DNA from: Candidatus Desulfofervidaceae bacterium
Lineage (GTDB): Bacteria > Desulfobacterota > Desulfofervidia > Desulfofervidales > Desulfofervidaceae
DNA: 64,000 nt
Assembly (NCBI GenBank): GCA_027064585.1
Contig: JAMOPI010000024.1
Span: 1-64,000, forward strand
Direction: 5' to 3'
The position numbers and the translations under genes are program-made. Positions within the stretch are counted from its first letter, which is position 1, and every line of letters starts with the position of its first letter. Below the pieces are notes generated by a model, which was given only the letters and a program-made list of their open reading frames with translations, did no database searches and was not told where the DNA came from. Positions 1 through 29,666 of the stretch are shown one piece after another.

Positions 1-261
1 GTTTATCAAAAGCGTAAGGCGAAAAAGAGATTTAGGAAACGAGCGGGGATAGAGGCGGTGATTGGGCACTTAAAGTCAGATTTTAGGCTTATTAGGAATT
101 ATCTTAGAGGAAGTATAGGGGATAAGATCAATTTGATGCTAGCAGCAGCTGCCTTTAACTTCAAAAAATGGATGCGGGAGGCGGTAGGATTTTTATTTGC
201 TCTTTTTGTCTTGATCTGGAATGAACAATATGAAAAGCAATTGGGGCCGGTTGGAAGCTAA
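1..261 (+). CDS. IS5-type transposase, C-terminal part (cut by window edge)
   Basis: The frame is open from base 1, so this is the tail of a longer DDE transposase. The end of the catalytic domain is visible: RKRAGIEAVIGHLK, where the Glu of the last DDE position would be expected, followed by RNYLRG, GDKINLMLAAAAFNFKKWM. That pattern is typical of IS5-family transposases. The N-terminal half and the left end of the element lie outside the window, so completeness cannot be judged. A second, degenerate copy of the same tail lies inverted at 351-429. Confidence 0.85.
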   Translation, partial: VYQKRKAKKRFRKRAGIEAVIGHLKSDFRLIRNYLRGSIGDKINLMLAAAAFNFKKWMREAVGFLFALFVLIWNEQYEKQLGPVGS

Positions 262-283
262 AACAGAGTTTTTCAGGGACGAC

Positions 284-322
284 TACATAGAATTATGCGG
301 TTAACTATATTTTTCAAACAGC
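284..322. repeat. IS end sequence, repeated inverted at 25983-26021
   Basis: These 39 bases are identical, in reverse complement, to the left end of element E. Read from right to left they begin GCTGTTTGAAAAATATAG, and the preceding bases (GAT versus GAG) also nearly match. They lie 22 bp after the transposase stop, where the right end of the IS would be expected. They also sit inside a spacer bounded by the inverted pair CAGGGACGA (275-283) / TCGTCCCTG (341-349), so the exact IS boundary is uncertain. Confidence 0.7.
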
Positions 323-350
323 ATCAGGGAATTACTTATTCGTCCCTGCT

Positions 351-4895: not shown

Positions 4896-6238
4896 TGGAG
4901 TAACCCTGCCCGTTTCATCTTATCTAGAATATTGTTCTTTACCCAATGTTTATCCCACCATTCTATCGGATTGACATACACCCCTTGGACGAGCATACTA
5001 AAGTGCAGATGATCTCCTCCTGCTAGTCCTGTTGCCCCCGTATAGCCGATAATATCTCCTTTTTTGACCTGTTGGCCTTCATTGACCAAAAAACTGCTTA
5101 AATGACCATAGAGGCTAAAAAGACCAAGGCCGTGATCAATGATTACGGCGTTTCCATAAACACCTAAGTATCCCTTATAGACAACTATGCCATTATTGGC
5201 GGCAGGGACAGGAGCGTGGGCAATAGAGGCAATATCTACGCCCATATGGACAGAAGTGCCAATCTTTTTCCCCTTATAGTAATAACTCCTTTTGTCACCA
5301 AAAGTTGCTCGCGTTGCTCCTTTCATTCTTAAAAATGCCCCATCAAAAAGGGGATAAGGAGTAAAAGTCTGACAAATCTTTTTAATCTCAGCATCTGTTC
5401 TGGCCCTTAACTCGGTATTAACCTTTAAGAATGTTTCTAAAAACTTGCCGCGTAGCTTAGGGTATATGGCCCAAAATTCAGGCATCTTGGCATGTAAAAA
5501 GCTATCGGTGATATTAATTGTGTCCCGTTTAAACCAAGGATGGATAATGTGATAATAAAACCCTCCTTCACCCCTATTACCTGCCTTATCCTGACAAACA
5601 ATCCGAAAAAGCATTTCTGGGGGGGCATTATAAGGGTAGGCAAAAAGACATAGGTAAAGACCCTTCCACTGCACACCTGCAAAAAAGAAATTATTGGCCT
5701 TTACCCCGTGCTTTACAAGGGGCTCGGGTGAACGATAAATCGTGAGGACACTTCCGCCAACGGCAATATTATGACTGCGGGTTAATACTTCAACCGTGGG
5801 AGGAGTAGTATCAATAAGGACACTATATTTGTGCTCAGCATAGTTACCCTTACCCCAGTGCCAAAGGGAATTATCTCTGGCATATATGACAAGAAACGCC
5901 GGCCCGTCATGTAAGCCTAATTTAGCAGGAATGACATCTATTTTAACGGTTTCTTTTGTTTTTTTCGTCCCCTGTTGGAGACTGTGGGAAAAGCTTTTTG
6001 CAAATATAGTAAACTTCTTATTATCTTGCTCAATATATGCCCCTATTTCTTTTAGTCCCCTGCCTTTTTCAGCAAAAGAGACAGTAAACTCCTTTCTTGC
6101 TGGTAGGTAGCCTGTAAGTTTAGGAGAAATTTCAATTTGAGGCGGTTGGGTTTCAAAAAAATTAGTAAAGATAAAAAAGATGCCAAAGAGAAAAACAACA
6201 ACCGCAACACACAAAAGATATTTTTTTGTATTTTTCAA
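4892..6238 (-). CDS. M23 family metallopeptidase (LytM-like), membrane-anchored
   Basis: A predicted cell-wall endopeptidase, or an activator of one. An N-terminal transmembrane helix (about residues 6-25) is followed by an extracytoplasmic region of roughly 270 residues with Ig-like character, then a LytM domain carrying HMGVD and HLHF zinc motifs. The longest frame begins at a TTG at 6262. I prefer the TTG at 6238 because an AAGGAGG site lies six bases upstream; this gives 448 residues starting at the basic flank of the helix. It is the first gene of the pyrE/carA operon. Confidence 0.85.
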   Translation of the reverse strand: MKNTKKYLLCVAVVVFLFGIFFIFTNFFETQPPQIEISPKLTGYLPARKEFTVSFAEKGRGLKEIGAYIEQDNKKFTIFAKSFSHSLQQGTKKTKETVKIDVIPAKLGLHDGPAFLVIYARDNSLWHWGKGNYAEHKYSVLIDTTPPTVEVLTRSHNIAVGGSVLTIYRSPEPLVKHGVKANNFFFAGVQWKGLYLCLFAYPYNAPPEMLFRIVCQDKAGNRGEGGFYYHIIHPWFKRDTINITDSFLHAKMPEFWAIYPKLRGKFLETFLKVNTELRARTDAEIKKICQTFTPYPLFDGAFLRMKGATRATFGDKRSYYYKGKKIGTSVHMGVDIASIAHAPVPAANNGIVVYKGYLGVYGNAVIIDHGLGLFSLYGHLSSFLVNEGQQVKKGDIIGYTGATGLAGGDHLHFSMLVQGVYVNPIEWWDKHWVKNNILDKMKRAGLLQ

Positions 6239-8214: not shown

Positions 8215-8522
8215 CCCAAATTCCGTGATTGACTTATAGTATTCCGCAAAAATTGGTGAATTTTCCTTCCAACCTCAAATAAAAAGTCAGCGCCGCAGCG
8301 AGCGAGGTCAAGGCTGGCCAAAGGCCACCCGTAGGGCTTGGCCTTGACCGCATGAGCGAGCGGAGGCGCTATAGTTATGATTGGGTTTTGGAAAAGAAAG
8401 AAGTTTTAATAAAATTTATAATTTATGATATGTAATAGCGCCGTTTTTTCACCCTTTAGGTAAAGGTTTTTTTGAAAGACTAGCCTTTTTATCACACCTG
8501 TGGATTTTCTTTTAGGATAATC
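8215..8522. mobile_element. Palindromic intergenic element, copy B
   Basis: Starts CCCAAATTCCGTGATTGA. The core holds the hairpin built from GGTCAAGGCTGGCC and GGCCTTGACC, followed by an outward TTGACC-N20-TATAGT. The right part is degenerate: an insertion precedes a recognisable CACCCTTTAGGTAAAGG hairpin, and the terminal repeat is only a trace (TTTTAGGAT). It lies between tmRNA and carB, which are transcribed divergently. Confidence 0.75.
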
Positions 8523-8536
8523 AAGAATTTTAACTG

Positions 8537-8552
8537 GAGGCTGTTTGAAAAA
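8537..8552 (+). repeat. Solo copy of the IS/element-E terminal repeat
   Basis: GAGGCTGTTTGAAAAA matches the terminal repeat of element E (25980 onward) and nearly matches the end of the IS at the left edge. No second end was found before carB, so this is a relic next to element B. Confidence 0.55.
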
Positions 8553-8647: not shown

Positions 8648-11600
8648 ATGCCGAAACGCACGGACATAAAAAAGATCCTCATCATTGGTTCAGGACCAAT
8701 TATTATCAGTCAGGCCTGCGAGTTTGATTATTCGGGTACACAGGCATGTAAGGCGCTAAAGGCAGAGGGTTATGAAATTGTGCTTTTAAACAGTAATCCG
8801 GCCACGATCATGACCGATCCAGAAATGGCCGACCGGACCTATATTGAACCCATCACACCTGAAATCCTAGAAAAAATTATTGCCAAGGAAAGGCCAGATG
8901 CCCTTTTGCCTACCCTTGGTGGTCAAACAGCCTTAAACACGGCCGTAGCCGTGGCCGAGGCTGGAGTATTGGATAAATATGGTGTAGAGATGATCGGCGC
9001 GTCGGTAGAGGTAATTAAGAAGGCCGAAGACCGAGAGCTTTTTCGGAACGCGATGCAAAACATTGGTCTTAGGGTACCAAGAAGTGGTATTGCCAGAAGC
9101 ATGTCTGAAGTAGAGAAAATAGCCAAGGAGATTGGCTTTCCCATCATTGTTAGACCAAGCTTTACCTTAGGCGGTACGGGTGGTGGTATAGCCTATAATT
9201 GGGAAGACTTAGAAGTCCTAGCTGAAGCAGGACTCTCAGCGAGTATGATCCATGAAGTTATGCTTGAGGAATCGGTGCTGGGTTGGAAGGAATACGAGCT
9301 TGAGGTTATGCGGGACAAAAATGACAATGTGGTCATTATCTGCTCTATTGAAAATGTTGATCCCATGGGCATTCATACTGGTGACAGCATTACTGTCGCC
9401 CCGGCCCAGACCTTGACCGATAAGGAATACCAAGCCATGAGGGATGCCGCCATTGCGGTCATCAGAGAAATTGGCGTGGAAACTGGCGGCAGTAATATTC
9501 AGTTTGCCGTAAATCCTGAAACTGGGGAAATGGTCGTTATTGAGATGAACCCCCGTGTTTCCCGCAGTTCTGCCTTAGCCTCAAAGGCTACAGGTTTCCC
9601 GATTGCCAAGATTGCCGCCAAATTGGCCGTGGGCTATACACTAGACGAAATTCCAAACGATATTACCAAAGAAACCCTTGCGTCCTTTGAGCCAACCATT
9701 GACTATTGTGTCGTCAAGATCCCAAGATGGGCCTTTGAGAAGTTCCCAGGGGCAAAGGACGAGCTGACAACCTCTATGCGCTCGGTAGGTGAAGTAATGG
9801 CCATTGGACGCACCTTTAAAGAGGCCTTACAGAAGGGCTTGCGTTCTCTTGAAATTGGAAGGCATGGTCTTGGCGCCGATGGTAAGGATCCGAAAACCTT
9901 AACTAAGGAAGAAATTAAGCAAAAGCTTATCCATCCAACCTCCCAGCGTATTTTTTATGTAAAATACGCCCTGCAAAAGGGCTTTAGCGTAGGAGAAATC
10001 TATCAACTTACCGCTATAGATCCTTGGTTTTTAAATAATATTAAACAAATTTGTGAGTTTGAAAATAAACTTAAACAATATCGCTTACGGCCATTAAATG
10101 AAATACCGCAAGAGGTGTTTCAGCAAGCCAAGGCCTATGGTTTTTCAGATAAACAACTGGCCTACCTGTGGGAAACCACAGAGGAAAAGATAAGAAAGGA
10201 GCGGGAAAAGAGAAATCTGTTTCCGGTCTATAAATTAGTAGACACCTGTGCGGCGGAGTTTGAGGCCTATACACCTTATTATTACTCCACTTACGAGCAG
10301 GAAGATGAAGCCAGGGTTTCAGATAAAAAGAAGGTGATGATCCTTGGTGGGGGACCCAATCGCATTGGTCAGGGTATTGAATTTGACTATTGCTGCGTGC
10401 ATGCTTCCTTTGCCTTAAAAGAAGAAGGCCTCGTAAGTATTATGGTTAATAGCAACCCTGAAACCGTCAGCACTGATTATGACACCTCTGATCGCCTTTA
10501 CTTTGAACCCTTAACCGAAGAAGATGTTCTCCATATCATGCGTGAAGAAAAACCTTGGGGACTGATTGTCCAGTTTGGCGGTCAAACCCCTCTAAATATC
10601 TCTGTGCCCCTTTATAAAGAGGGCGCACCTATTATCGGCACCACACCAGACAGTATTGACCGGGCAGAAGATAGGGAACGTTTTAAGGAGCTTTTACAAA
10701 AACTTGGGCTAAAGCAGCCACCAAACGGCACCGCTATGACCCCAGAAGAGGCGATTATTATCGCCCATAAAATTGGCTTTCCGGTCTTAGTCAGACCTTC
10801 TTATGTGCTGGGTGGGCGAGCAATGGAAATTGTCTATGATGATGAAGAACTTAACAAGTTTGTCCGTTTGGCAGTAGAGGCTGCCCCTGGACATCCTATC
10901 TTGATTGATAAATTCTTAGAAGATGCCATTGAAGTAGATGTAGATGCAGTGGCGGATGGTGAAATCTGTGTCATAGCAGGTGTGATGGAACACATAGAAG
11001 AGGCAGGCGTGCATTCTGGCGATAGCGCCTGTGTTTTACCGCCCCATACCTTGTCTCAAGAAATTGTAGAAGAGATAAAACGCCAGACAAAGGCCTTAGC
11101 GATGGAGCTTAATGTGGTGGGGCTTATGAATGTACAATATGCTGTGAAGGACAATGAAATTTATGTCCTTGAGGTTAACCCGCGTGCCTCACGCACGATA
11201 CCCTTTGTTAGCAAGGCCACTGGTATACCTTGGGCCAAGGTAGCCACGAAGGTAATGGTCGGCAAAAAGTTAAAAGATCTTGGCATTACTAAGGAAGTAG
11301 AAATAAAACATGTCGCGGTAAAGGAGGTAGTTCTACCCTTCTTGCGGTTTCCAGGGGTTGATCCAGTGCTTGGGCCTGAAATGCGTTCTACAGGTGAGGT
11401 TATGGGCATTGATTACAGCTATGGTTTGGCCTATGCGAAGGCCCAGATTGCGGCCGGGCAGAAGTTACCTAAAGAAGGTAAGGTTTTAATTACGGTTGCG
11501 GACAAATTAAAACCAGCAGTTGTGCCCATTGCCAAAAAGCTGGTAGATCTAGGCTTTAAGCTAGCAGCTACCGCCGGCACAGCGGCCTATTTGAAAAAAG

Positions 11601-11884
11601 TGGGGTTTGCCGTGGAAGAAGTGCATAAAGTACGGGAGAAAAGACCACATGTTCTTGACCACATTAAAAACAGGGAATATGCCCTGGTTATCAATGCCCG
11701 CCTGGGCAGGGAATCTAGTGAAGATGGGGCTTTAATCCGCAAGACCGTTCTTCTTTATGGTATTCCTTATGCGACAACCTTGGCTGGAGCCAAGGCTATG
11801 GTAGATGGTATTGAGGCCCTGCAGAAAGGAGAAATGAAAGTTAGATGCCTACAGGAGTATCATAATTTACAACGAACAAGATAG
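8648..11884 (+). CDS. carB: Carbamoyl-phosphate synthase large subunit
   Basis: Makes carbamoyl phosphate from bicarbonate, ATP and the ammonia delivered by CarA. 1078 residues, the normal length. Two homologous ATP-grasp halves are evident (GGQTALN and [10 protein letters not shown] in the first; [23 protein letters not shown] and [10 protein letters not shown] in the second). An MGS-like regulatory domain closes the protein ([13 protein letters not shown]). A possible promoter is TTGCCA-N17-TAAGGT at 8583-8611. The gene is monocistronic and separate from carA. Confidence 0.98.
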
Positions 11885-25941: not shown

Positions 25942-25970
25942 ATTCTAGCGCATGGACTAAGGAATGACAA
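25942..25970 (-). promoter_or_regulatory. Putative promoter of the CysK-CysS operon
   Basis: TTGTCA (25965-25970), 17-bp spacer, TAGAAT (25942-25947). The -35 box lies nine bases from the left end of element E. Confidence 0.55.
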
Positions 25971-25979
25971 GGGCTGGGA

Positions 25980-26245
25980 GAGGCTGTTTGAAAAATATAG
26001 TTAACCGCATAATTCTATGTAATTTGTGGAGACTTTTTCCTTCCAAGGCCCAATCATAATTATAGCGCCTCCGCTCGCTTAGCGGTCAAGGGCAAGCCCG
26101 CAGGGCGCTGCCTGCCCAAAGGGCAGGTCGGAGCAAGGGTAGCGAGCGGAGCCCCTTGACCACCTAACGAGGCCTTGGCGTATAATTTACTTTAAGTCAG
26201 GAGGAAAGAGAAATTTGGATCAATGTTTAATTTTCAAACAGCCTC
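25980..26245. mobile_element. Chimeric element, copy E, with IS-type ends
   Basis: 266 bp bounded by a perfect 15-bp inverted repeat GAGGCTGTTTGAAAA, flanked by the 9-bp direct repeat AGGGCTGGG (25970-25978 and 26246-26254). The core is the reverse complement of the core of copy F with about one substitution and one small indel over some 130 bp, while the ends belong to the IS at the left edge of the window. It carries outward TTGACC-N19-TATAAT boxes at both core edges. Confidence 0.9.
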
Positions 26246-26356
26246 AGGGCTGGGGAAACAGAAAAGATATCCAAAACTAGAAAGATGTAATAATTCCCCT
26301 TGACTTTCATATATGATTTTGAAAAGATAAGGGAAAATAGACTGAGGGGGGTTGAA

Positions 26357-29340: not shown

Positions 29341-29652
29341 CCCAAAATTCGCGATTGATTTATAGTATCCCCAAACACTGATGAGTTTCCCTTCCTCCTT
29401 ACTTAAAGTAAATTATACGCCAAGGCCTCGTTAGGTGGTCAAGGGTCTCCGCTCGCTACCCTTGCTCCGACCTGCCCTTTGGGCAGGCAGCGCCCTGCGG
29501 GCTTGCCCTTGACCGCTAAGCGAGCGGAGGCGCTATAATTGGGTTTGAGGAAAAGATATATGTTTTCTCACCTTTTAGGTGAAAAATGTTTTTTAAAAAA
29601 ATGTTTTACGGCATACTTCTGGAGTTTCTTGAAGGGCAATCGCGGATTTTAG
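29341..29652. mobile_element. Palindromic intergenic element, copy F
   Basis: A well-preserved copy. It starts CCCAAAATTCGCGATTGA and ends CAATCGCGGATTTTAGG. Outward boxes are TTGACC (29437-29442, minus)-N19-TATAAT (29412-29417) and TTGACC (29509-29514)-N19-TATAAT (29534-29539). A CACCTTTTAGGTG hairpin lies near the right end. It separates the divergent dnaK and parA genes. Confidence 0.92.
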
Positions 29653-29666
29653 GATAATTATAAAAT

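Follow-up and report, generated by a model that had tools for sequence, protein, structure and literature searches.

Element E and its boundaries

The window, i.e., the whole stretch of 64,000 nucleotides analysed, harbours a genuine small, non-coding and non-autonomous element (MITE), here called E, which belongs to a modular intergenic family. In line with its designation as a MITE, E is short (266 bp), lacks a transposase and has terminal inverted repeats, its two 15-bp ends being exact inverted copies of GAGGCTGTTTGAAAA. The features of E and of the related copy F are:

25970..25979, left target duplication AGGGCTGGGA, 9/10 identical to 26246-26255
25980-26245, element E, 266 bp, without transposase, with 15-bp exact inverted ends GAGGCTGTTTGAAAA
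25980..25994, plus strand, left terminal inverted repeat GAGGCTGTTTGAAAA (E end)
25996..26057, plus strand, E-type left arm, starting TATAGTTAACCGCATAATTC
26058..26206, plus strand, core common to E and the F-ended copy at 29341-29653, 98.7% identical over 149 bp
26059..26089, minus strand, outward sigma70-like promoter sequence TTGACC-N19-TATAAT (consensus match only)
26156..26186, plus strand, outward sigma70-like promoter sequence TTGACC-N19-TATAAT (consensus match only)
26231..26245, minus strand, right terminal inverted repeat GAGGCTGTTTGAAAA (E end)
26246..26255, right target duplication AGGGCTGGGG
29341..29653, minus strand, copy F, the same core between CCCAAAATCCGYGATTG-type ends

With at most one mismatch, GAGGCTGTTTGAAAA is found at four sites in the window, as compared to 0.03 expected. 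The 9-bp target duplication described in the original prediction exists in so far as an exact repeat, AGGGCTGGG, lies on both sides of E, with one extra, unpaired A on the left. Because other E-ended copies have 9-12-bp repeats that abut their ends, the flanking duplication of E is best read as AGGGCTGGGA/AGGGCTGGGG, a 10-bp duplication with a single mismatch. Elsewhere in the window, a solo GAGGCTGTTTGAAAA end at 8537-8551, for which no clear partner end was seen, is located a short distance upstream of a large ORF (8648-11884) and beside an F-type relic at 8215.

The insertion sequence at the left edge of the window

It had been proposed that E is bounded by the ends of an IS5-type insertion sequence (IS) at the left edge of the window, and that the transposase of this IS moved E. 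The features in this region are:

1..284, plus strand, 3' part of an IS5-family IS with an NF033578-type transposase, coding to base 261
265-284, minus strand, terminal repeat AGTCGTCCCTGAAAAACTCT of the left-edge IS
285..288, ACAT, 4-bp duplication made by the left-edge IS inside a MITE, contig C6 having the other copy at its left end
285..325, minus strand, end piece of a further E-type MITE that the IS disrupted (the supposed IS end)
326..335, outer target duplication AGGGAATTAC of the broken MITE, its partner AGGGGATTAC being on contig C6 (9/10)

Positions 25980-26021 of E match 284-325 at 98%, and 39 identical bases, previously taken as the first 39 of E, are indeed present; however, this run begins at the fourth base of E (25983), the outermost three bases being GAG in E but GAT at 323-325. 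Likewise, E does have inverted GAGGCTGTTTGAAAA ends with a duplication, but these are not the ends of the left-edge IS. The C-terminal and N-terminal pieces of this IS both match NF033578, and its ends are AGTCRTCCCTGAAAAAC at both the 5' and the 3' side, a sequence found at about 45 sites in the genome in contrast to none in a reversed-pattern control; most of these sites are at the ends of contigs, where the assembly was interrupted by the IS. Since, in addition, the same 3' terminus is followed by unrelated flanks in over 20 copies, the IS stops at base 284. Both of its ends are thus known, with no copy being whole in this assembly, and they do not match those of E; nor does its duplication of 4 bp agree with the 9-12 bp found at E ends.

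The sequence that adjoins the IS from 285 to 325 is a broken E-type MITE end, which lies there because the IS inserted into this MITE. On contig C6, the one half reads ...AGGGGATTAC then AAGGCTGTTTGAAA ... CCACAAATTACAT followed by the IS, and in the window, on contig C24, the other half reads IS, then ACATAGAATTATGCGG ... CAAACAGCATC and AGGGAATTAC. When the two are rejoined, ACAT lies inside the MITE and a 10-bp duplication, AGGGGATTAC/AGGGAATTAC, outside of it, and as judged from these sequences C6, the IS and C24 are probably adjacent in the chromosome. A second insertion of the IS at the same MITE position is found at C23 and C16 (duplication ATGT). The left-edge IS therefore landed inside a sister of E and broke it. 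Although 39 identical bases directly adjoin it, a left-edge IS that itself has GAGGCTGTTTGAAAA ends and that captured and moved the core is hardly conceivable in view of its own AGTCRTCCCTGAAAAAC ends at base 284, its 4-bp duplications, and the completion of the adjoining fragment on C6 with an outer duplication of its own. An IS adjoining a repeat may merely have landed there, which calls for caution.

About 11 of the 43 distinct sequences flanking the left-edge IS lie inside MITE copies, which is more than expected from the share of MITEs in the genome (contig ends C23/C16, C6/C24, C15, C12, C22, C30, C35 and C36; loci L053, L043, L162, L083, L081, L038, L172, L037 and L040), and a target preference of this IS for MITE copies is possible.

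A modular family of cores, arms and ends

With 61 matches to E and 62 distinct core segments in the 1.92 Mb draft assembly, the family is multicopy, as is characteristic of MITEs, and comprises at least 60 copies. Most of these end in CCCAAAATCCGYGATTG, with duplications of 4-5 bp where these are discernible, whereas a minority including E has GAGGCTGTTTGAAAA ends and 9-12-bp duplications. The F end CCCAAAATCCGYGATTG occurs at 149 sites in the genome as compared to none in the control, and the E end at 50 sites as compared to 6.

As originally claimed, E and F have a common core: from 26058 to 26206, E is 98.7% identical to F, which is located 3.2 kb away in inverted orientation, with the next best copy reaching 88.6% and the best E/E-ended sister 85.5%. 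The best matches of the left arm of E, in turn, are E-ended copies. Because the core of E is thus closest to F and its left arm closest to E-ended copies, ends and cores reassort and have separate histories. Both types of ends are found in pure as well as mixed combinations and on short as well as long cores, and many right arms have an E end (GAGGCTGTTTGAAAATTGAACATTGA) immediately outside an intact F end. The left arm starting TATAGTTAACCGCATAATTC is found with and without the GAGGCTG end, the latter in several copies of this genome and also in G004, a genome of another genus. In a core tree, with which a single capture of the core was tested but which is poorly resolved, the end types do not cluster (13 label changes, shuffled mean 14.2); as F was merged with E in the rows of this tree (50 identical bases), the direct comparison of E and F was used instead.

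These data bear on the question of how E came by its present core. An older E-ended MITE might have resided at this site and had its core overwritten by gene conversion from F, such that the ends and the duplication are those of the older MITE. The confinement of the 98.7% identity to 26058-26206, with E matching E-ended copies outside of it, the inverted arrangement of E and F at 3.2 kb distance, and the scattering of E-end labels on the core tree all favour this scenario, but it leaves the first joining of E ends and core unexplained. We give it a slightly less than even chance, and as a later step such a gene conversion is compatible with the history proposed below.

As to the distribution of the family, G001, a genome of the same genus, is without it and G004, which belongs to another genus of the same family, has it, for which patchy inheritance and transfer are possible alternatives.

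Target duplications at the two classes of ends

Duplications were scored at nine E-ended copies, with 72 mismatched flank pairings as the null. A score of at least 6 was reached by six of the nine copies, the maximum among the mismatched pairings being 3, so that target duplications are present at several copies of this MITE and the direct repeats predicted at other E-ended copies do exist. The best duplications (E 9/10, C9 10/10, C25 9/9, C6/C24 9/10, C28 10/12 and C14 9/11) range from 9 to 12 bp in length; at the other three of these nine copies no convincing duplication was found. Among F-ended copies, an exact 5-bp duplication is present in 5/22 (0.1 expected) and an exact 4-bp duplication in three (0.19 expected). 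The lengths therefore differ by end class, being 4-5 bp for F ends and 9-12 bp for E ends. Because CCCAAAATCCGYGATTG ends go along with the shorter and GAGGCTGTTTGAAAA ends with the longer duplications, one core has been moved by two systems, and in this respect the notion of an element that changed its mobilising system holds.

The three copies without a convincing duplication could be taken to mean that the direct repeats are due to chance and that the GAGGCTG ends are conserved arms and not transposon ends. With duplications in six of nine copies, far above the shuffled pairings, and an IS that shares these ends and is flanked by an 11-bp duplication (see below), this is very unlikely. On many right arms, the F-end sequence directly adjoins the inner side of the E end, which could also indicate that the ancestral, full-length element was E-ended and that the CCCAAAATCCG- or TATAGTTAACC-ended copies are truncations without the outer ends. 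However, F-end sites outnumber E-end sites (149 vs. 50) and F-ended copies are far commoner, exact 4-5-bp duplications abut F ends, and the cores in the relative from another genus lack E ends, which renders an ancestral E-ended form rather improbable. The copies without E ends in this genome and in G004 suggest that the E ends were gained by the core, although a loss could also explain them.

Candidate source of the E ends

The 15-mer of the E end has 19 exact copies in this genome and not more than one in any of 394 further genomes from its phylum; GAGGCTG ends in relatives are at background level, and no exact copy of the 31-mer of the E end was found in public genomes. In a Desulfurobacteriaceae MAG (JALUGO010000005.1) among these public genomes, GAGGCTGTTTGAAAA bounds a 980-bp IS (L298, 7006-7985) with an 11-bp duplication, GCATCTAGTGT, whose decayed transposase matches NF033579 'IS5_2' (E=1.3e-19) and PF13737. 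A second copy in this MAG (L347, 347-1203) has the end variants GAGAGTGTTTGAAAATTG, resembling the right end of E, and GGGGCTGTTTGAAAAATCC, resembling its left end, i.e., the two inner variants of E. With respect to the terminal repeats, E is thus consistent with derivation from an IS5-family IS of the NF033579 (IS5_2) type as represented by L298 and L347, and such an IS is the most likely mover of the E ends.

E itself, in contrast to this IS, is without a transposase, and the sole relative of the NF033579-like transposase in this genome is a ruin (C10:242-571), beside which no GAGGCTG ends were found. Neither an intact parent nor a clear internal remnant of an NF033579-type IS beyond this C10 fragment, nor an intact cognate transposase for E, was found in the genome, and no intact GAGGCTG-ended IS was found in the genome or its family. 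The IS that moved the E ends is now ruined or absent in this genome. A search with PF01609 (DDE_Tnp_1) matched only copies of the left-edge IS, and UPF0236/ISLre2, considered as a mover because of the 9-bp duplication, gave no match to PF06782 here or in any control genome. In a Hydrogenobacter MAG (L290, JAGDVY010000004.1, approximately 5641-5843) there is a 203-bp non-coding element that likewise has these GAGGCTGTTTGAAAAAT ends, although this thermophile is unrelated; no duplication was seen at it.

A proposed history of the E-ended copies

The history that we consider probable starts with a core that came to lie between two ends of an IS with GAGGCTGTTTGAAAA termini, likely an IS of about 1 kb with a transposase of the NF033579 'IS5_2' group and duplications of about 10 bp. 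F- or arm-terminated elements would thereby have been captured and then moved in trans by the transposase of that IS, while sister copies with CCCAAAATCCG ends would have been moved by a second transposase that makes 4-5-bp duplications. Subsequently, recombination or gene conversion between copies might have led to an exchange of their arms and cores. The assignment to this transposase group, its action in trans and the later addition of the E ends appear plausible from the matching termini and from the arms that occur without them. Speaking against this account, the IS with the matching ends resides in a different phylum and is decayed as well, and a spread of 9-12 bp is wider than usual for the duplications of one transposase.

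As non-autonomous elements rely on a transposase that is foreign to them, its extinction should also be theirs. We tentatively raise the possibility, which is somewhat less probable than its converse, that the core repeatedly exchanges complete end sets, that a passenger re-ended for a new transposase survives the loss of the old one, and that nested ends record the order of the switches. If true, a non-coding passenger would be a modular, transposase-hopping parasite. As there are about 60 related copies with two unrelated end sets, including mixed copies, such partner switching can be traced sequence by sequence.

Comparison with known systems

A mobile insertion cassette consists of IS ends around foreign DNA. 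The same holds for E, where IS ends enclose DNA unrelated to the IS, the core being found with other ends as well; in both, unrelated DNA replaces the transposase gene and mobilisation is presumed to occur in trans. In contrast to such cassettes, which have been named beside MITEs (PMC3129680), the passenger of E is not a gene but the core of another non-autonomous element. Like MITEs and IS-derived miniature elements such as the Correia elements and MITEAba12 (PMC10969869), the E family is short, non-coding, intergenic and multicopy, with inverted ends, target duplications and internal promoter-like sequences and without a transposase. It differs from them in that a single core family combines, in mixed fashion, with two sets of ends that are unrelated and differ in duplication length; that two such sets, each with its own duplication length, share a core within one genome is less usual. 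The insertion of an IS into a MITE has a precedent in QMITE2 and IS1111 of Coxiella (reviewed in PMC10969869). TIMEs, which are mosaic non-autonomous elements of the Tn3 type, resemble the E family in that non-autonomous ends build mosaic mobile units, and recombination between copies has been proposed for them; however, their ends are those of the Tn3 family and they mostly occur as single copies, as opposed to a multicopy core with swapped ends (PMC4133298).

Promoter-like sequences inside the copies

Copies of the MITE contain promoter-like sequences of the form TTGACC-N19/20-TATAAT, often two of them and outward-facing, with a spacing that is unusually long yet constant. All 12 matches to this pattern in the window (plus strand: 6480, 13129, 26156, 29509, 36456 and 52781; minus strand: 55374, 42400, 36393, 29412, 26059 and 13033) fall inside copies of the element.
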